64,000 nt of DNA from Gemmatimonadota bacterium (GTDB lineage Bacteria > Gemmatimonadota > Gemmatimonadetes > Gemmatimonadales > Gemmatimonadaceae). Position 1 is the first letter of the stretch. The number at the start of each line of letters is the position of its first letter. The position numbers and the translations under genes are program-made. The stretch is taken from positions 1-64,000 of the forward strand of contig JAPLKS010000017.1 in NCBI GenBank assembly GCA_026387915.1, written 5' to 3'. Shown here piece by piece: positions 27,235-38,970 of the stretch. Below the pieces are notes generated by a model that was given only the letters and a program-made list of their open reading frames with translations, was not told the DNA's origin and ran no database searches.

Positions 27235-29305
27235 GTTTCAGCTCCCACGTCCCGATAGTGCTCAGGTTGACGAACGGTGGCAGTTCCGCGAGCGATACCA
27301 CGGGCAGCTGCGGCATCACAGGCTCAATCAGACGACGTACGCCAACGCGGAGACCGGGCGGCACGAAGAGCGGCATCGTGCGCGCGTCGGGCGCGGCGGC
27401 CATAAGGTTCTGCAGTTCGCGGAGCAGTCCAGCCAAAGAATCGGGCGTGAGCAGGCTCGTGCCAGGCTGAGCCGAGCGCGGAGCAAAGAGCCCCATGAGC
27501 GATGCCTCGAGGCGCGGTCCAAGCGTAATGCCGCGCAGCGCGCCGTCTTCGCCCATGAACTGATTGGCAATGACGTTGCCGAGCGAACGGCGCACGTGCT
27601 CGGTGAGCTGTTCCGGATCTTTGACCACGTCGGCATTGTCGCCGAGCGCTTCGAGAATCGTGACCAGGTCGCGAATCGGAACGCGCTCACGGAGAAGGCG
27701 CTGCAGCACGCGGTGCAGAATGCCCAGTGAGATTTTGGCAGGCACGACTTCTTCAACAAGTGCCGGATGCGTCCGCTTGAGCGTCTCGACCATTTCCTGC
27801 ACGTCCTGGCGACCGAGCAGTTCAGCGGCGTTGGCCTTGATGGTCTCCATCAAGTGCGTGGCCACCATCGTGGTCGGTTCAACTACGACGTAGCCCAGCG
27901 CTTCAGCCTCGGTGCGGCGCGACGGATTGATCCAACGCGCCGGCATACCGAAACTCGGATCCGATGCTTCGACGCCGTCAATCGGCTCGAGCACAGCGCC
28001 AGTATCGAGCGCGAGCACAAAGCGCGGGAGCACCTCGGCGCGCGCGACTTCGGAGCCGCGGAGCTTGATGATGTATTCGTTGGCCGGCAGACGGACGTCA
28101 TCGCGAATGCGAATGGCCGGCACCAGAATGCCGAGGTCCACCGCGGCCTGCTTGCGGAGGAGGCTAATGCGTTCGAGCAGGTCGCCGCCCTGCGACTCGT
28201 CGATGATCGGAATGAGCGCGTAGCCCACTTCGATTTCGATCGGGTCGAGTTGCAGCAAGTCCTTGAGCGGCGACGGTGCGGGCGGTGCGGCCGCTTCGGG
28301 CACAATGCGCTCCGACTCGGCTTTCGCTTCGCGCTGATCCTGAGCGTCCGTGGCCACTTTACCAATCGCAGCAAACACACCGGCCAGAATCAAGAACGGA
28401 ATCGTGGGGAGGCCCGGGATGATAGCGAAGGACGCCAACACACCACCGGTGATATACAGGGCCTTGGGCTGCGCGCCGAGCTGCGAGCTCAACACGTTGC
28501 CGAGGCGCGTGCCACCCGCGGACGTGACCATCAGGCCAGCGGCGGTGGAGACGATCAGCGCGGGAATCTGCGCGACGAGTCCTTCACCAACGGTGAGGAT
28601 GGTGTACGTCGAAGCCGCATCGGCAATCGGGAGGCCGCGCTGCACCACACCAATAAAGATGCCGCCCAGAATATTGATGCCCGTAATGAGCAGGCCGGCA
28701 ATCGCGTCGCCCTTTACGAACTTTGAGGCGCCGTCCATCGCGCCAAAGAAATCGGCTTGGCGGCTGATGATCGAGCGACGTTCGCGCGCGGTGGCCTCGT
28801 CAATAAGACCGGCGCTCAAGTCGGCGTCGATCGCCATTTGCTTGCCGGGCATGGCGTCAAGGGTGAAGCGCGCCGCCACTTCGGCCACGCGTCCAGCACC
28901 CTTCGTGATAACGATAAAATTGATGCCAACGAGAATCAGGAAGAGCACGAGACCCACGGCATAGTTGCCGCCGATCACGAACTTGCCGAATGCCTCAATC
29001 ACCTGTCCCGCATGGCCCTGCCCAAGAATCAACCGTGTGGAACTCACGTTGAGCGCGAGGCGGAAGAGCGTGAGCAAGAGCAGCAGCGCGGGGAAGGAGC
29101 TGAACTCAAGCGGGTCTGTGGTATAGAGCGCCGCGAGCAAGACTACCAGCGACACGCCAATGGAGAGCGCCAAGAACAAGTCGAGCATGAACGGCGGCAG
29201 CGGCACCACCAGCAAGGCGATGACGAAGACGACGGCCACGGCGACGCCAACTTCGGCGATTCGCGCGCGGCGCACATCCGGGCCCGGAACGATCATGGTG
29301 CTCAT
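27224..29305 (-). CDS. flhA: Flagellar export gate protein FlhA
   Basis: Encodes 693 residues, full length. Eight N-terminal transmembrane segments occupy about 20-330, including the conserved FHIPEP-type loop region (AARFTLDAMPGKQMAIDADLSAGLIDEATARERR). A large cytoplasmic domain follows (LDPIEIEVGYALIPIID, WINPSRRTEAEALGYVVVEPTTMVATHL, IRDLVTILEALGDNA). It energises and selects substrates for flagellar type III export. Confidence 0.96.
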   Translation of the reverse strand: MSTMIVPGPDVRRARIAEVGVAVAVVFVIALLVVPLPPFMLDLFLALSIGVSLVVLLAALYTTDPLEFSSFPALLLLLTLFRLALNVSSTRLILGQGHAGQVIEAFGKFVIGGNYAVGLVLFLILVGINFIVITKGAGRVAEVAARFTLDAMPGKQMAIDADLSAGLIDEATARERRSIISRQADFFGAMDGASKFVKGDAIAGLLITGINILGGIFIGVVQRGLPIADAASTYTILTVGEGLVAQIPALIVSTAAGLMVTSAGGTRLGNVLSSQLGAQPKALYITGGVLASFAIIPGLPTIPFLILAGVFAAIGKVATDAQDQREAKAESERIVPEAAAPPAPSPLKDLLQLDPIEIEVGYALIPIIDESQGGDLLERISLLRKQAAVDLGILVPAIRIRDDVRLPANEYIIKLRGSEVARAEVLPRFVLALDTGAVLEPIDGVEASDPSFGMPARWINPSRRTEAEALGYVVVEPTTMVATHLMETIKANAAELLGRQDVQEMVETLKRTHPALVEEVVPAKISLGILHRVLQRLLRERVPIRDLVTILEALGDNADVVKDPEQLTEHVRRSLGNVIANQFMGEDGALRGITLGPRLEASLMGLFAPRSAQPGTSLLTPDSLAGLLRELQNLMAAAPDARTMPLFVPPGLRVGVRRLIEPVMPQLPVVSLAELPPFVNLSTIGTWELKHAA

Positions 29306-30402
29306 ACGGTGACGGCGGTTGAAGAGCGAGCCGGCGCGCCACGACGGGCGCGCTGACGAATCACAAAGGCGAGGACTTCAGCAACGGCGGCGTACAAGTC
29401 GGCGGGAATCATCATGCCGACCTGCGCCGACCCGAGCAGCGCCCAGGCCAACGGTTTGTTTTCAATGACCGGCACGTTGTTCTCGTACGCGATCTTCTTG
29501 ATGCGTTCGGCGATCTTGCGCTGACCCATGGCGAGCACAATCGGCGCCGGTGCCTTGAGAGCGTCATAAAGCAGCGCCACGGCGACGTGCGTCGGGTTGA
29601 CGATGATCACATCGGCCTTCGGCACGTCTTGGAACATCTGGCGACGCATCCGCGCGCGCGCCGCCGCCCGCATGCGACCCTTCATCTGCTGATCGCCTTC
29701 GGACTGTTTGGATTCCTGGCGAACCTCTTCCTTACTCATCTTGAGGTTCTTTTCGTACTGCCACCACTGAAACAGATAATCCGCCGCGGCGAGCACGAGA
29801 TACGCGAGGCCGGCGCTGACGAGCATCTTCACGGAGTAGTGACGCGTCGTCTCGAGCAAGCTGGCCGGATCTCTCGACGAGAGTTCGGTGAACTCCGGCC
29901 ACGCCGCCGACAGTGCGCGCCATACGGCCCAACCGATAATCGCAACCTTGAGAAGCGCCTTGATCAACTCCGCCACCTGACGCCAGCCCAACATCTGACC
30001 CGCGTTGGTCATCGGGTTGAGGCGTTCCCAGTTCGGACCGAGCGGCTTGATGGTCAAGGTGCCGCGTGCCTGAACGGTGGCAACGGTGAGTGCCGTCACG
30101 GCCACACCCGCTGCGAGAAAGGCAATGATGTACAGCGTTTCACGGCCCGTCTGCTGCAGCAATGACACGGCCGCACCTTCGCCGCCCTTCATCGCGCCCA
30201 CCTGACGGAGTCCGCTCGCAAAGAGTTCGATCATTCGTGCGGAAATCGCCGGCGCCACGGTGTTGATCGTAAAGGCCGCACTCAGCATAAGCGCCGCGGT
30301 GCCGAGTTCCGGCGATCGCGGGATGCGGCCTTCTTCCTTGGCGTCTTGTCGCTTTCGCGGTGTTGCTTGTTCGGTTTTTTCCTGTTCAGAATCGTTTGCC
30401 AT
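29302..30402 (-). CDS. flhB: Flagellar export switch protein FlhB
   Basis: Encodes 366 residues. The charged N-terminus EQEKTEQATPRKRQDAKEEGRIPRS is characteristic. Four transmembrane helices and the cytoplasmic domain follow, with the autocleavage site NPTH in VIIVNPTHVAVALLYD and the tail VIENKPLAWALLGSAQVGMMIPADLYAAVAEVLAFV. It switches export from rod/hook to filament substrates together with FliK. It overlaps flhA by 4 bases. Confidence 0.96.
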   Translation of the reverse strand: MANDSEQEKTEQATPRKRQDAKEEGRIPRSPELGTAALMLSAAFTINTVAPAISARMIELFASGLRQVGAMKGGEGAAVSLLQQTGRETLYIIAFLAAGVAVTALTVATVQARGTLTIKPLGPNWERLNPMTNAGQMLGWRQVAELIKALLKVAIIGWAVWRALSAAWPEFTELSSRDPASLLETTRHYSVKMLVSAGLAYLVLAAADYLFQWWQYEKNLKMSKEEVRQESKQSEGDQQMKGRMRAAARARMRRQMFQDVPKADVIIVNPTHVAVALLYDALKAPAPIVLAMGQRKIAERIKKIAYENNVPVIENKPLAWALLGSAQVGMMIPADLYAAVAEVLAFVIRQRARRGAPARSSTAVTV

Positions 30403-30411
30403 AATCGCGCC

Positions 30412-31212
30412 TCAGCGGATAGCCACGGCCATAAAGCCGCGGGCAACGACGCTGAGCATGCCGTCGTAGACACCGGACCATCCGCCGAAGAATCGGGCGA
30501 TGGCCGGCAAGGAGGCGATCAGTGTCAGCAAGCCGACGGCGATCTGAATCGGGAACGAAACTGAGAGAATGTTGAGCTGCGGAGCCGCGCGTCCAAGGAC
30601 GGCCAGCGCCACGTTGGTGATGAGCACGGCGGCAATCACTGGTGCCGCAAAGCGCACCCCAAAGGCAAAGAGCGCTCCGCCCAGCTGCAGCATGGCCATC
30701 ATTCCGCCCGGGAGTGATACGGGCTGACCCAGCGGCAGCGCATGGAACGAGTCGGCGAGCGCCGACAGCATTTGGAGGTGCAGGTTGAACGAGAGCAGCA
30801 ACGTGACGGCGAACAGCCGCATGAAGGTGCCGAGGACCGGCAGATTTTCGTTGCTGAGCGGATCGAGAATCGCCGAGCCGCTCAAGCCGATCTGCACGGC
30901 GACCACGTCGCCGGCCGTCTCGGCGGCGGCAATGAGAAGAGCCGCCCCCAGTCCGATCGAGAAACCGATGACGGTTTCCGTAATGAGCGTTGCGCCGGTG
31001 ATGTGGGGTACCGTCGACATCGCCGACAAGGCCATGGGCTGCAACAGCAGGGTGAGAATGACCACGAGCATCGCGCGATACATGCGCGGCACCACGGTCT
31101 CCGACAGCGCCGGCGCGACCAACATCAATCCGCCCATGCGCGCACCGGCGAGCACGAGTGCCTCTCCGGAGCCGCGGGAGAACAGATCGAAGGGCGCGAC
31201 CGCAATGTTCAT
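30412..31212 (-). CDS. fliR: Flagellar export gate protein FliR
   Basis: Encodes 266 residues with about six hydrophobic segments (EALVLAGARMGGLMLVAPALSE, MYRAMLVVILTLLLQP, ETVIGFSIGLGAALLIAAAETAGDVVAVQIGLS, AAPVIAAVLITNVALAVLGRAAPQLNILSVSFPIQIAVG). This is the standard FliR/SpaR layout. The ATG at 31212 overlaps the fliQ stop by 4 bases (ATGA). Confidence 0.95.
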   Translation of the reverse strand: MNIAVAPFDLFSRGSGEALVLAGARMGGLMLVAPALSETVVPRMYRAMLVVILTLLLQPMALSAMSTVPHITGATLITETVIGFSIGLGAALLIAAAETAGDVVAVQIGLSGSAILDPLSNENLPVLGTFMRLFAVTLLLSFNLHLQMLSALADSFHALPLGQPVSLPGGMMAMLQLGGALFAFGVRFAAPVIAAVLITNVALAVLGRAAPQLNILSVSFPIQIAVGLLTLIASLPAIARFFGGWSGVYDGMLSVVARGFMAVAIR

Positions 31213-31478
31213 GACGCGAGATTCGGAATGCTGCGGAGCAGTTCGGCGGTATAGCGCACCGCCGTCTGAATCATCCACGGCAGGCCAATCAAAAAGACCA
31301 TGGCCACGGCGGTGAGTTTTGGCACGAAGGCGAGCGTCTGCTCTTGGATCTGCGTGACGGCTTGCAGAATGCTGATGATCAATCCCACGATGAGGGCGAC
31401 GAGAAGCATCGGCCCTGCGAGTGAGGCGGCCAACAGCAACGCGTTGCGTGCGAGGTCGACGACGATGGTATCAGACAT
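31209..31478 (-). CDS. fliQ: Flagellar export gate protein FliQ
   Basis: Encodes 89 residues with two transmembrane helices (NALLLAASLAGPMLLVALIVGLIISILQAVTQIQEQTLAFVPK and VAMVFLIGLPWMIQTAVRY), exactly the FliQ pattern. ATG 31478 overlaps the upstream fliOP stop by one base (TAATG), so translation is coupled. It assembles with FliP and FliR into the export gate. Confidence 0.95.
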   Translation of the reverse strand: MSDTIVVDLARNALLLAASLAGPMLLVALIVGLIISILQAVTQIQEQTLAFVPKLTAVAMVFLIGLPWMIQTAVRYTAELLRSIPNLAS

Positions 31479-32743
31479 TAGCGGAAGCTCTGGACGAGGC
31501 CCTGAATGAGCAGTGACCACCCGTCGACGAGCACAAAGAGGAGCAGCTTGAAGGGCAGGGAGACCATCACGGGCGGCAACATCATCATGCCCATGGACAT
31601 GAGCACGGAAGCCACCACGACGTCGATGACGAGAAAGGGGAGAAAGAGCGCGAAGCCAATCTGAAACGAGATGCGCAGTTCACTGGTGGCAAAGGCGGAG
31701 ACGAGCACGACGAGCGGCACATCTTCCGGGCGGGAGACGGCCGGCTGGCGGCTGATGCTCATGAAGGTCACGAGATCGCGCTCGCGCACCTGGCGCAGCA
31801 TGAAGGTGCGAAACGGCTTGACGCCTTCGGCGAGCATCGTGGACTGTTCCATCTTGCCGTCGAGCCAAGGCTCGAGTGCGGTGCGATTCACTTCGGTGAG
31901 CGTCGGCGTCATCACGAAGCCCGTGAGGATCAATGCCATCGCGGCAATCAACTGCCCCGGCGGGGCACTCTGCGTGCCCATCGCCTGACGCAGAAAGTGT
32001 AGGACAATGAAGATGCGGGTGAAGCCCGTCATCATCAGGATGGCCGTGGGCAGTAGCGTGAGCAGTCCCATCATGACGACCACGCCGACGGTGCCGGAGA
32101 GTCGCAGGCCACCCGCCTGTTCGCCGACGCGTAGGTCGATGCGCGGCGCGAGCTTGGCGATCATCGTGTCCGCGCGTGCGACAGTCGGGCCAGCGGTCGC
32201 GGCCTTGGCGGGCGCGGCTTTCGTTGGCGCCGTTTTGGTCGTGGCGGCAGGGTTCTGTGTCGGCGCCTTGGTTGCGGCGGATGGCTGAGCCGGCGCGGCC
32301 TTGGTCGGTGCAGCGTTTTGTACAGGGGCGGCTTTCGTCGGCGCGGCGTTCTGTGCCTGCAGCGAACCGATGGCCAACATCAGCGCGAACACCAGTCCGG
32401 TGGACTGGCGCAGCGCTTGGCGCAACGTGCCGCCGAATCCGCCAGCAACATCCGTGGTGGTCGGAACAGCAATCGCATCAGCGCCGGCCGGCGTGTCGAC
32501 TTCGACCAGCGTGCGGACGCCGCCCTCACCAATGGACACCGCAATGAGTTGCTCGCCGATGCGAACAATCGCGATGCCCTGACGCGGTCCGAGCGGCAAG
32601 CGCTGGACTACCTCGAGCGGCATACGGCTGGTGCCGCTCGCCGTGGTCGGCGCATAGCGCTTGAGCAAACGGAGCGTGAGCACGAGCAGCCCGAGCACAA
32701 GCCCGAGCATGCCCATCACGCCAATGAACGACCCAATGGTCAC
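31478..32743 (-). CDS. fliP: FliO-FliP fusion, flagellar export gate assembly and core protein
   Basis: Encodes 421 residues in one frame with two flagellar modules. Residues 1-100 look like FliO: one transmembrane helix (about 6-27) and a small beta domain, MPLEVVQRLPLGPRQGIAIVRIGEQLIAVSIGEGGVRTL. From about 218 the sequence is canonical FliP (GFTRIFIVLHFLRQAMGTQSAPPGQLIAAMALILTGFVMTP, MSMGMMMLPPVMVSLPFKLLLFVLVDGW). Between them lie a FliP-like signal peptide (about 116-130, LVFALMLAIGSLQA) and a 70-residue Ala/Pro/Thr/Lys linker with NAAPTKAAP repeats. Signal peptidase could release FliP from FliO. No stop or frameshift separates the parts. Confidence 0.9.
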   Translation of the reverse strand: MTIGSFIGVMGMLGLVLGLLVLTLRLLKRYAPTTASGTSRMPLEVVQRLPLGPRQGIAIVRIGEQLIAVSIGEGGVRTLVEVDTPAGADAIAVPTTTDVAGGFGGTLRQALRQSTGLVFALMLAIGSLQAQNAAPTKAAPVQNAAPTKAAPAQPSAATKAPTQNPAATTKTAPTKAAPAKAATAGPTVARADTMIAKLAPRIDLRVGEQAGGLRLSGTVGVVVMMGLLTLLPTAILMMTGFTRIFIVLHFLRQAMGTQSAPPGQLIAAMALILTGFVMTPTLTEVNRTALEPWLDGKMEQSTMLAEGVKPFRTFMLRQVRERDLVTFMSISRQPAVSRPEDVPLVVLVSAFATSELRISFQIGFALFLPFLVIDVVVASVLMSMGMMMLPPVMVSLPFKLLLFVLVDGWSLLIQGLVQSFR

Positions 32744-33060
32744 GCGGCGGCCTCGATCGGGCTGAAGCCCTGCACCACGGAGGTGAGGCGAATGCCAAAG
32801 TGTTCGTCGATGACGACCACTTCGCCTTCGGCAAAGCGACGGTCGCCGACATAGATGTCCACCGGCTCGCCGGCCAGACGCTCGAGCTGAATGACGGACC
32901 CGCGTCCGAGGCGCAGGATTTCTTGCACGGTCATCTTGGTGCGGCCGAGCTCGATCGACACGGGCAGGTTGAGGTCGAGCAGCATAGAGAGCGGAACTTC
33001 ACCCTGGCCGTTGAGGGTCGTGGTGAGTTCGGTGTAGTTGGGCTGTTGGCTGTCAGTCAT
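32740..33060 (-). CDS. fliN: Flagellar motor switch protein FliN
   Basis: Encodes 106 residues from ATG 33060. The SPOA domain is clear: LLDLNLPVSIELGRTKMTVQEILRLGRGSVIQLERLAGEPVDIYVGDRRFAEGEVVVIDEHFGIRLTSVV. It forms the lower C-ring with FliM. The upstream in-frame extension to 33156 overlaps fliM and is rejected. It overlaps the following fliOP start by 4 bases. Confidence 0.95.
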   Translation of the reverse strand: MTDSQQPNYTELTTTLNGQGEVPLSMLLDLNLPVSIELGRTKMTVQEILRLGRGSVIQLERLAGEPVDIYVGDRRFAEGEVVVIDEHFGIRLTSVVQGFSPIEAAA

Positions 33061-33079
33061 GGCAGTGGTCAGAGAGAGG

Positions 33080-34069
33080 TCAGCGGGTGCCCGGTGCTTC
33101 TGGGGCGTCGAGGAGTCGAACTGCAAGCTTTTTGCCAATACGGCCGGCGGCGGCACTGTAGCGCTTGTGGCCGCCGATATGCAGCTCGAGCGGCGTATCC
33201 GTGGGAATGCCGGTGGGGATCACACTGCCCATCGGGAGGTTGAGCAGCTGGCGCATCGTGACGTTGAACATTGGCATCCGCGCGGTGATATCCACGTTGG
33301 TGGCGCGCAGCGAATCTTCGGCGAGTTCGCGCGTCCGACGGCGTTCCTCATCAGAGCCCGTCATTTCCTTGACGCGCTTGGAGTCGCTGGACGAGAAGAA
33401 CTTGTCGAGCACGGAGAGCGGTAGGCACACCACGAGCAGCGAGGTGAGCGAGCCCGAGCTCACCTGGATGTTGGCGACGAGCACCGGATCTTCGCGGGCC
33501 ACGCCCTGCACCATCTCGGGGAACGACTCAAACGTCGTGATCGCGAGGTCGAGCCCCACGAAATCTTGCCAGATCTCCGCGAGCAGGCCGGAAATGCGTT
33601 CGACGACCATACGCACGGCGAGCCGCTCGATGGGCGTCATCGCGCGCTGCATCAGCGCCGGGTTGTCACTGCCGCCAAAGAAGCGGTCGACGAGGAAGTA
33701 GGCGAACTCGTGTCCGACGTCGATCACGCCCTTTTGACCGGGCACGTTCACGATGTCAAAACCGTACGACGCGCACGGCGTCGGCAGCGAGAATGTGAAC
33801 TCGCCGAAGGTGAATTGCTCCACGCTTTGCAGCTTGAGTTCCACCTGACGGCGCACGCGGCCGATCAGCCATGCTTCAAGCGATTTCGTGAGACGCTCGT
33901 ACATCGCTTCGAGCGTCCGGAGACGCTCTTTGGAGACGTGGCGCGGACGGCGGAAATCGTACAGCTGCACATCTTCGCTCGTCGTGTAGCCAGGGTCGGC
34001 TGCTGCGAGCGGATCTGCGCTGCTGCCCAAGAGGGCATCGATCTCAGTCTGGGAAAGTTTTTCGGCCAT
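33080..34069 (-). CDS. fliM: Flagellar motor switch protein FliM
   Basis: Encodes 329 residues. The N-terminal CheY-P binding peptide KLSQTEIDALL is intact. The CheC-like middle domain (GHEFAYFLVDRFFGGSDN, MTPIERLAVRMVVERISGLLAEIW) and the C-terminal SPOA domain (TARMPMFNVTMRQLLNLPMGSVIPTGI) follow. The conserved CheY-binding peptide fits the cheY and cheZ genes at 55.6-56.6 kb. AGAGGG precedes ATG 34069. Confidence 0.95.
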   Translation of the reverse strand: MAEKLSQTEIDALLGSSADPLAAADPGYTTSEDVQLYDFRRPRHVSKERLRTLEAMYERLTKSLEAWLIGRVRRQVELKLQSVEQFTFGEFTFSLPTPCASYGFDIVNVPGQKGVIDVGHEFAYFLVDRFFGGSDNPALMQRAMTPIERLAVRMVVERISGLLAEIWQDFVGLDLAITTFESFPEMVQGVAREDPVLVANIQVSSGSLTSLLVVCLPLSVLDKFFSSSDSKRVKEMTGSDEERRRTRELAEDSLRATNVDITARMPMFNVTMRQLLNLPMGSVIPTGIPTDTPLELHIGGHKRYSAAAGRIGKKLAVRLLDAPEAPGTR

Positions 34070-36274: not shown

Positions 36275-36964
36275 TTAGTTAGCGCCGAACACTTGCACGA
36301 CCGTCCCGGACGAGAAGGTTCGAGTACCGCTGGTTATTACTGCACCGTTCGTGCCAAACTGAATTCCATCGACGCGCGTTGTGATAAGAGGCGTGGGATT
36401 TGTGACCTTTCCCGTGCCGTCCTTGAAGTCGAACGCAACCTTATACGTGCCGGGGATGAGCCCGTCGGAGAGCGTGGTCAACGAGTAGCTGTGCTTGCCG
36501 CTGGTCACACTTCCCATGTCCTGTGACCGTAACGTGTTGCCGTTCGCATCCGTGATGCGGACGGTGAGTTTGCCACCACCGTTCGGAATGTTGACCGCCG
36601 CCGCCGACGTGGGAGACGTGCCGCCCACGGCGATCTGCGGATCAGCCACTTCCACGTTCTTACCAATCAGGCCCAGCGTCGCCGAGTTGTTGATGGCATT
36701 GACCAGCGATGCATTGCTGTTGGACTGCGCCGTCAGCGTGCTGTTGATACTCTGGAGCTGCTCCACCGAGGAGAACTGCGCGAGCTGCGACGCCATCTGC
36801 GACCCGTCCTGCGGAGCGAGTGGGTCTTGGTGCGTCATCTGGGCAATGAGCAGTTTGATGAACTGATCCTTTCCCATGGCGCCGCCAGCGCCGGCCGTCA
36901 GCGGATCAACCGTGCTGCCGGAGGTGGTGCTGGTGTAGCCCGTACTGCCGATTGGTGCTGTCAC
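36275..36964 (-). CDS. flgD: Flagellar hook assembly scaffold FlgD
   Basis: Encodes 229 residues. MGKDQFIKLLIAQMTHQDPLAPQDGSQMASQLAQFSSVEQLQSIN is the N-terminal capping signature; the C-terminal FlgD Ig/Tudor-like part includes LTVRITDANGNTLRSQDMGSVTSGKHSYS and GTYKVAFDFKDGTGK. It is the temporary cap for hook growth. It overlaps fliK upstream by 4 bases and lies 17 bases before flgE. Confidence 0.94.
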   Translation of the reverse strand: MTAPIGSTGYTSTTSGSTVDPLTAGAGGAMGKDQFIKLLIAQMTHQDPLAPQDGSQMASQLAQFSSVEQLQSINSTLTAQSNSNASLVNAINNSATLGLIGKNVEVADPQIAVGGTSPTSAAAVNIPNGGGKLTVRITDANGNTLRSQDMGSVTSGKHSYSLTTLSDGLIPGTYKVAFDFKDGTGKVTNPTPLITTRVDGIQFGTNGAVITSGTRTFSSGTVVQVFGAN

Positions 36965-38970
36965 GGTGTATCTCCCTTCTGCTCCCGACGGGAGCGGTTG
37001 CGGGACGGGTCCTGTTGTGAACGCTGTCCCTGAGCATCGCCGCGTGAACGCGACGATGAAGAAGTCTCTGCGAAAAGCGTGCCGGGCCGTGCGAGAGCAG
37101 CCGCGCCGGACGCGGCGAGACCGCGCGCGGAGTCGGGCGCCGAACTGCCGGCAATCAATGCCGAGGCGCGAACCCGCAGGGCGTCGGTCGACAACCCCCG
37201 CGCTTCGAGCGCCGAACTGAGTTCCTGAATCCGGTTGTTGATCTGTTCAGCGGTGGCGGCATCTCGTACGTCGATCGTGGCGCCCACAGTGGAGCCGCGC
37301 ACCCCGACGCGAATACGATCTTCGCCGCCCTCACCATTGTCCATCTTGAGCGTCATGAACGAGGCCGGCTGCGCGTCGCGCGCATCCTGCAGGGCGAGCA
37401 CCTGGTCCACACGCGATGCCGCGCTGGTACCCACAAGTCCCGATCCTTCCGTTGGTGTCACCAACGCACGCGTCATCTCACTGCCAATAGACCGAAGGTC
37501 GGCCAGGCGCGCTTCCGGAGTACGCGGCTCGCGCGAATCAGTCGGCGACGTCGATGCATCCGAGGCGCTCCGAACCGCAGCGCCTTGACGATCCGGTGCC
37601 GAACGCTCACGATCGCCACGCGTGCTGGCGTCGTTGCGCGTGCCGCCTACGGTCACCAGCGTGTCACTTGTGACCTGCGTTGCGGAGCCGGGCGTTGCGG
37701 AGCTGGGCGCTGCGGAGCCGGGCGTTCCTGTTGCGGCAACATTCGCCGCACGCGCCACGCCGGCCACAGCGGCAACAGCTGCCACACGGGCCACCCGCGC
37801 CACGTTCAGCGCGGCTGCCGACGCTGGCAATTCCTGCGTCAAGGACGCAACAGCTCTAGCGTTCGTGGCCGTGTCAGCGGCGGGGTTCACCGTCGCTGCA
37901 ATCTGCACGTCAGTCACAGTCGCAAACTTGCCAATGTCGCTCACCGAACGACCACCCGGCAGCTGCACATGTCCTGGGTCGCGCGGTCCGAGTGTCTGCA
38001 GCCCTTCTTCCTGCGCAACCTGGGCTAAGTGCTGATACCCAGCCGCATTGTCCCACTTACCGTCCACTACAAGATCTGCGGCGGCGCCAGCGGAGTGCTG
38101 CGACGCACGCGTCCAAGTGACCACCGGACCGGGACGTGTACGCCCCTGTTCGGCAAGATAATCCTGGCGCGTTTGACTTCTCCACGCCTCATTGACCGTG
38201 ACGTCGTGTCCGAACTCGTCCTTCATTCGCTCGATGACGCGTTCTACTTTCGCGCGGAACTCCGGCTGCAGCGAACTCACATCACGCACGATAAGTGTCG
38301 GATCAACCGCAGCGAGTGCGCGGCTGGCGTCGAGTGGAGATGCGCCCGCGGCGTTGGTTGCGGCTCCGGTCAAATCCGTCGACGAAGCATCGGTCGGAGC
38401 AGCGGTCGAAGCGTCGGCCGATGCGGCCTTCGCGTCGGTGGTCAACGCTGTGGCAGTTGCCGCAGCGGCATCTGCCGCCTTAGCATCTGCCGCCTTAGCA
38501 TCTGCCGCCTTAGCGTCAGAATCACCGGCTACGCGCGCGATCAGTTCACGTAGCGCATCGGTCGCGGCATGCCGTGGGGTCACAGCGCCAGCATTTTCGT
38601 CTACGAGCGCGGCCGAACTGGACGCCGCATCGGCTGTGGAAACATTCGCATCGCTCTGCACCGTGCCATCGCCAGACGACGACTGCGACGAAGCATCGAC
38701 CGGCATTTGCGCATTATCCGACGACACGGTCATGACCGAACCTTCGCTCGGGGGCAGGATCGTACCGTCACTCGAAACGTTGTCGCTCTCAGCGTTTGCG
38801 TTCGGCTTCAACACACGCGCGAGTAGCCCGGCAAAACGCGCGTGCGTAGCCGAGGGCAACGTACCATCCATCCGCTGCGAGTCCGCACCGCTCCCCGGCA
38901 TCGCCGAGAATGGCGCTCCTCCTCCCACGGGCGCGCCCGAAGGCGCGAAGGTCGGCATGACGTTGCTCAC
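36961..38970 (-). CDS. fliK: FliK-like hook-length protein with embedded M15-type peptidase domain
   Basis: Encodes 669 residues, between a MotE-like gene and flgD, the usual fliK position. The N-terminal 220 residues are low complexity (Ala/Asp/Ser, with AKAADAKAADAKAADA). Residues about 233-338 resemble a D-Ala-D-Ala peptidase/endolysin of the M15 superfamily: EAWRSQTRQDYLAEQGRTRP, then SQHSAGAAADL with candidate zinc ligands H292 and D299, and DPGHVQL with H334. The C-terminal part (about 545-625) is FliK-like (LKMDNGEGGEDRIRVGVRG, then INNRIQELSSALEARGL). FliK measures hook length and triggers the FlhB switch. A peptidoglycan hydrolase insert is unusual and may replace the enzyme missing from FlgJ. 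Confidence 0.8.
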   Translation of the reverse strand: MSNVMPTFAPSGAPVGGGAPFSAMPGSGADSQRMDGTLPSATHARFAGLLARVLKPNANAESDNVSSDGTILPPSEGSVMTVSSDNAQMPVDASSQSSSGDGTVQSDANVSTADAASSSAALVDENAGAVTPRHAATDALRELIARVAGDSDAKAADAKAADAKAADAAAATATALTTDAKAASADASTAAPTDASSTDLTGAATNAAGASPLDASRALAAVDPTLIVRDVSSLQPEFRAKVERVIERMKDEFGHDVTVNEAWRSQTRQDYLAEQGRTRPGPVVTWTRASQHSAGAAADLVVDGKWDNAAGYQHLAQVAQEEGLQTLGPRDPGHVQLPGGRSVSDIGKFATVTDVQIAATVNPAADTATNARAVASLTQELPASAAALNVARVARVAAVAAVAGVARAANVAATGTPGSAAPSSATPGSATQVTSDTLVTVGGTRNDASTRGDRERSAPDRQGAAVRSASDASTSPTDSREPRTPEARLADLRSIGSEMTRALVTPTEGSGLVGTSAASRVDQVLALQDARDAQPASFMTLKMDNGEGGEDRIRVGVRGSTVGATIDVRDAATAEQINNRIQELSSALEARGLSTDALRVRASALIAGSSAPDSARGLAASGAAALARPGTLFAETSSSSRSRGDAQGQRSQQDPSRNRSRREQKGDTP

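Follow-up and report, generated by a model that had tools for sequence, protein, structure and literature searches.

A FliO-FliP fusion conserved in the class Gemmatimonadetes, predicted to be a membrane polyprotein that signal peptidase cleaves at its internal signal

To our knowledge, polyproteins processed by signal peptidase are rare in bacteria. For FbcH of Bradyrhizobium, the cytochrome b/c1 precursor, cleavage was reportedly shown experimentally by Thony-Meyer and Hennecke. FbcH resembles the FliO-FliP fusion described here (gene fliOP) in being a bacterial membrane polyprotein with a signal peptidase cut, predicted in the case of fliOP, at the internal signal of its second half; however, it belongs to a respiratory complex, and its proteins are unrelated to FliO and FliP. 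FliP is the main part of the flagellar export gate and FliO its helper. Two other gate proteins, FliR and FlhB, occur as a natural fusion, in which we know of no internal signal peptide. That fusion (NCBIfam PRK12772) likewise makes a single chain of two membrane proteins of the export gate, but it concerns another pair, and fliR (30412-31278, minus strand) and flhB (29302-30402, minus strand), both identified by profile matches, are separate in the DNA analysed here, a 64,000-nucleotide stretch of a Gemmatimonadota genome (the window).

In Salmonella, FliO and FliP are made separately with the same domains as here, a signal at the start of FliP and an A-Q cleavage (PMC5542437; PMC12403130), which falls between A21 and Q22 (PMC12403130). 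The N-terminus of mature FliP is periplasmic, and its first strands form a beta-cap (PMC12403130). FliO stabilises FliP and scaffolds its ring, but the completed basal body lacks it (PMC5542435; PMC5542437). According to the main text of a 2025 FliO survey (PMC12403147), FliO consists of a transmembrane (TM) helix and a cytoplasmic beta domain, matching the AlphaFold model of FliOP. The FliOs with AMIN or LysM domains described in that text are likewise lineage-specific enlargements, although their added domains are periplasmic and sit on FliO, whereas the present case is a fusion to FliP. Neither a FliO-FliP fusion nor Gemmatimonadota was found with search terms in the main text or in the FliO-diversity section of the survey, and a full-text literature search, covering the main texts mostly of papers available without subscription, returned no earlier description of such a fusion.

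As opposed to the two genes of Salmonella, the window has a single frame with an internal signal; in the fused proteins, the predicted cleavage site is followed by a linker roughly 35-175 residues long. The frame (31478-32743, minus strand; 421 aa) starts with GTG at 32743, ends with TAA at 31478-31480 and holds 421 open codons with no internal stop. An earlier note on this DNA had given the end points 31478 and 32743 correctly and no strand, and its reading of the parts was borne out as well. The FliO-like N-terminus is matched by Pfam FliO (PF04347) at residues 26-111 (E=1.7e-11; 44.5 bits against a cut-off of 22), with one TM helix and a small cytoplasmic beta domain, and the NCBIfam FliO model TIGR03500 scored 45.8 bits, below its cut-off of 55.25. 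The FliP core (residues 224-416, 31496-32074, minus strand) is a full-length domain by PF00813 (E=5.8e-74; 248.6 bits against a cut-off of 26.9) and by the NCBIfam fliP model TIGR01103 (251.5 bits, above 217.45). Between them lie the described signal peptide and the linker with NAAPTKAAP repeats. The core is about 50% identical to solved FliP structures, and a fold search with the FliOP model recovers FliP; by profile and fold matches, the components are thus an ordinary FliO and an ordinary FliP. They are also the only FliO and the only FliP match in the genome. None of the NCBIfam matches to the frame is a FliO/FliP fusion model, while the same library has one for FliR/FlhB.

The gene order is fliL-fliM-fliN-fliOP-fliQ-fliR-flhB-flhA. 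The stop of fliN (32740-33156, minus strand) overlaps the fliOP start in GTGA, the start of fliQ (31209-31478, minus strand) shares one base with the fliOP stop in TAATG, and no promoter-like site was found around the fliO/fliP junction. Elsewhere in the window, a FliK-like hook-length protein (36961-38970, minus strand; Flg_hook E=2.5e-5, below the Pfam cut-off) has a mid-region, at about residues 208-345, that resembles M15 peptidases: Peptidase_M15_3 matches at E=2.4e-4, below the Pfam cut-off, the L-alanyl-D-glutamate peptidase of PDB 2vo9 matches at E=5.5e-5, and HSAGAAAD and GHV motifs are present. This protein may possibly be a ruler combined with a peptidoglycan peptidase.

The AlphaFold model has low overall confidence (pLDDT 68.7, pTM 0.43) and was used for secondary structure only. 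It comprises a helix at residues 3-30, a four-strand sheet at 43-82, a helix at 103-126, disorder at 129-192, a beta hairpin at 204-215 and then the FliP helices. The first helix (32654-32737, minus strand), also evident from hydrophobicity, is the FliO TM helix and is predicted to lie with its N-terminus outside and its C-terminus, with Arg/Lys, on the cytoplasmic side, by the positive-inside rule and the main text of PMC12403147. The sheet (32498-32617, minus strand) lies within the Pfam FliO match and forms the cytoplasmic domain. It is followed by a hypervariable spacer (residues 83-102, 32438-32497, minus strand), the signal, and the disordered Ala/Pro linker (residues 131-199, 32147-32353, minus strand), which would be periplasmic. 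The hairpin (32099-32134, minus strand) sits where the beta-cap hairpin of FliP (PMC12403130) would be and may be its equivalent.

A search of the phylum's genomes, 395 in all, detected FliP in 103, and the DNA of 91 loci was read: 72 are fused by HMM, 8 are cut by contig ends, 1 is frameshifted, 4 are split and 6 belong to family f11. Gemmatimonadetes is a class of soil bacteria, and within it the single fused frame occurs in 72 of the 77 fliP loci with enough upstream sequence, spanning families f1, f2 and f4-f7 and including single-contig genomes; the look at other Gemmatimonadota that the earlier note had proposed found the same fusion in this class. All six loci of f11, which belongs to another class, are unfused, FliP having its own N-terminal signal and FliO being elsewhere in the genome; in these loci (L092-L097) the distant FliO occupies open frames of ~237-365 codons. 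A scan of species genomes gave at least 580 FliP loci; in the best-scoring 80, from roughly 17 other phyla by their record titles, no FliO was detected in frame with FliP, and in most of these 80 FliO is a separate ORF upstream. Fusions may still occur elsewhere. Two single cases deserve mention. In L087 (draft genome G338) a frameshift in the Ala/Pro linker, probably an error of the sequence, parts FliO and the signal from FliP. Genome G308 has two near-identical fused loci (L042 and L043; FliP DNA 91.5% identical), representing either two flagellar systems or mixed strains.

The internal signal (about residues 103-130, 32354-32437, minus strand) has an n-region FGGTLRQALRQSTG, an h-region LVFALMLAIG and a c-region SLQA; in the window the signal up to the site reads LVFALMLAIGSLQA, followed by Q. 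Signals were sought by simple hydrophobicity and motif rules rather than by a trained predictor. The signal anatomy and the predicted signal peptidase I site ahead of mature FliP are present and conserved, internal instead of N-terminal. The site, Ala130-Gln131 (32351-32356, minus strand), was located by column conservation and motif count. When 36 fused proteins were aligned over residues 84-199, only Ala130 and Gln131 exceeded 90% (34/36 each); the next best of these 116 columns reached 25/36, the stretch being hypervariable. Moreover, the motif [ASVGTLI]xA-Q follows the h-region in 63 of the 72 fused loci, against a mean of 25.7 and a maximum of 36 in 500 shuffles, and two of the nine loci missing the strict motif still have A-Q. 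An amphipathic, moderately conserved DFRxxLRxAL-like motif (residues 103-114, 32402-32437) precedes the signal. Over ~360 kb of the genome, 52 candidate N-terminal signals were collected; after AxA they carry Q more often than any other residue (16), many of the others looking weak by eye. The A-Q signals of this genome (loci L103-L119 and the window) resemble the Q-rule described for signal peptides of Bacteroidetes (PMC5837995), a paper whose main text does not name Gemmatimonadota.

The earlier note had suggested that the chain is split by signal peptidase. The conserved Ala130-Gln131 pair, the hydrophobicity and charge of the segment, the lack of a conserved internal start and the position of a natural gene fission (see below) support this part of its reading well, and the cut itself stays a prediction from comparison. 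The fusion might instead stay uncut, with the internal segment as a permanent anchor and FliO domains attached to every FliP of the gate. The one open frame would permit this, and since the best 19-residue mean hydrophobicity of the segment exceeds 1.6 in 45 of the 72 loci, it could in some of them physically serve as an anchor without being cut. However, the segment is weakly hydrophobic, with 1.66 as against 2.58 for the FliO TM helix, 2.44 for the first TM helix of FliP and 2.16 for N-terminal FliP signals elsewhere, and conservation of Ala130-Gln131 in a hypervariable stretch would have no obvious reason absent cleavage. Finished Salmonella basal bodies lack FliO (PMC5542435), and one genus, described below, makes FliO and FliP apart. 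A permanently uncut fusion is hence considered improbable.

Another explanation is that an in-frame start inside the gene, just ahead of the signal, yields most of the FliP, and that the frame stays open through FliO by accident of the GC-rich DNA. Stops are indeed scarce in such DNA, the genes of this operon often overlap tightly, and the window locus has a TTG, 10 codons ahead of the h-region, that may allow some extra initiation there. Against it, in 25 of the 72 fused loci the 20 codons ahead of the h-region contain no ATG, GTG or TTG, and the positions of possible starts show no conservation, so that a separate FliP start cannot be the general way; a conserved internal start was rejected on this count. 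The frame is also kept despite very different spacer lengths, and the spacer is evolving as translated sequence. Its GC content by codon position in the fused loci is 0.725/0.636/0.843; in 23 close pairs its dN/dS is 0.42, that of the linker being 0.36; and nucleotide-level alignments gave spacer substitutions of 0.198/0.151/0.296, an excess at the third position, with 15/5/28 differences in three gapless pairs. Gap length modulo 3 was uninformative because the aligner scatters many small gaps through these spacers, which are divergent and of low complexity. Coding periodicity, purifying selection and the lack of a conserved internal start argue for a single translation unit across the compared loci, and an internal start as the main source of FliP appears very improbable. 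The possibility that two genes were joined in error, by sequencing or assembly, is practically negligible and was rejected, with nothing in its favour: the fused frame recurs in 72 loci of different genomes, single-contig ones included, the sole frameshifted relative (L087) is broken within the linker, and the class-wide frame excludes the frameshift or sequencing error between the parts against which the earlier note had cautioned.

In genus g5 (L028, L031, L056 and L057) FliO and FliP are separate genes with a tight overlap, GTGA or TAGTG. The FliP tree joins these four split loci in a single clade (support 100/99), which is sister to the fused locus L012 (100/93) and nested among fused lineages. 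This is most simply explained by a single fusion ahead of the diversification of the class and a single later fission in g5. FliP of this genus starts with GTG and carries its own signal at the place of the internal signal of the fused proteins. A DFQxxL motif persists in the FliO tail; since the DFRxxLRxAL-like motif thus remains with FliO after fission, it may have a role in FliO itself. The net charge of this tail is -1 or -2, whereas the n-region of the fused loci has at least +1 in 70 of 72. This difference suggests that the positive charge before the signal is retained for signal function, with the limited weight of one evolutionary event.

Taken together, comparative sequence evidence makes it very probable that the product of the single gene fliOP is a membrane polyprotein which signal peptidase I cleaves at the internal signal. 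On insertion, the N-terminus of FliO would lie outside and its beta domain in the cytoplasm. As this end of FliO would be cytoplasmic and the N-terminus of FliP periplasmic, one more membrane crossing would be needed, and the retained signal could supply it: the chain would re-enter the membrane through the FliP signal peptide, now internal, and signal peptidase I would cut after Ala130 and expose Gln131. One product would be FliO with a second, C-terminal membrane anchor, the spent signal, unless this is degraded. The other would be mature FliP, its N-terminus in the periplasm and its beta-cap hairpin preceded by a long, disordered Ala/Pro extension. Release of FliO from FliP is to be expected given its absence from the finished Salmonella structure.

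What the fusion brings is, on our analysis, likely to be that FliP is born, co-inserted, beside its chaperone FliO. A single frame makes equal (1:1) synthesis automatic, and the earlier note saw the purpose of the fusion there; we keep this as a rationale only, FliO being an assembly aid and g5 managing without the fusion. It is also conceivable, if rather doubtful, that cleavage acts as a checkpoint of assembly and not as simple trimming, with FliP tethered to FliO, recruited in cis to the FliO/FliP platform and freed for the gate by cutting.

For annotation, the FliP of this class should be treated as a precursor whose FliP core is preceded by roughly 170-650 additional open residues, and its FliO may appear to be missing; automatic annotations of Gemmatimonadetes genomes may already carry the fusion. 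Overall, fliOP would be a polyprotein conserved over a whole class, with the fission in g5 as a natural control, and it bears on the opening step in building the flagellar gate, in which the way FliO helps FliP is still debated.
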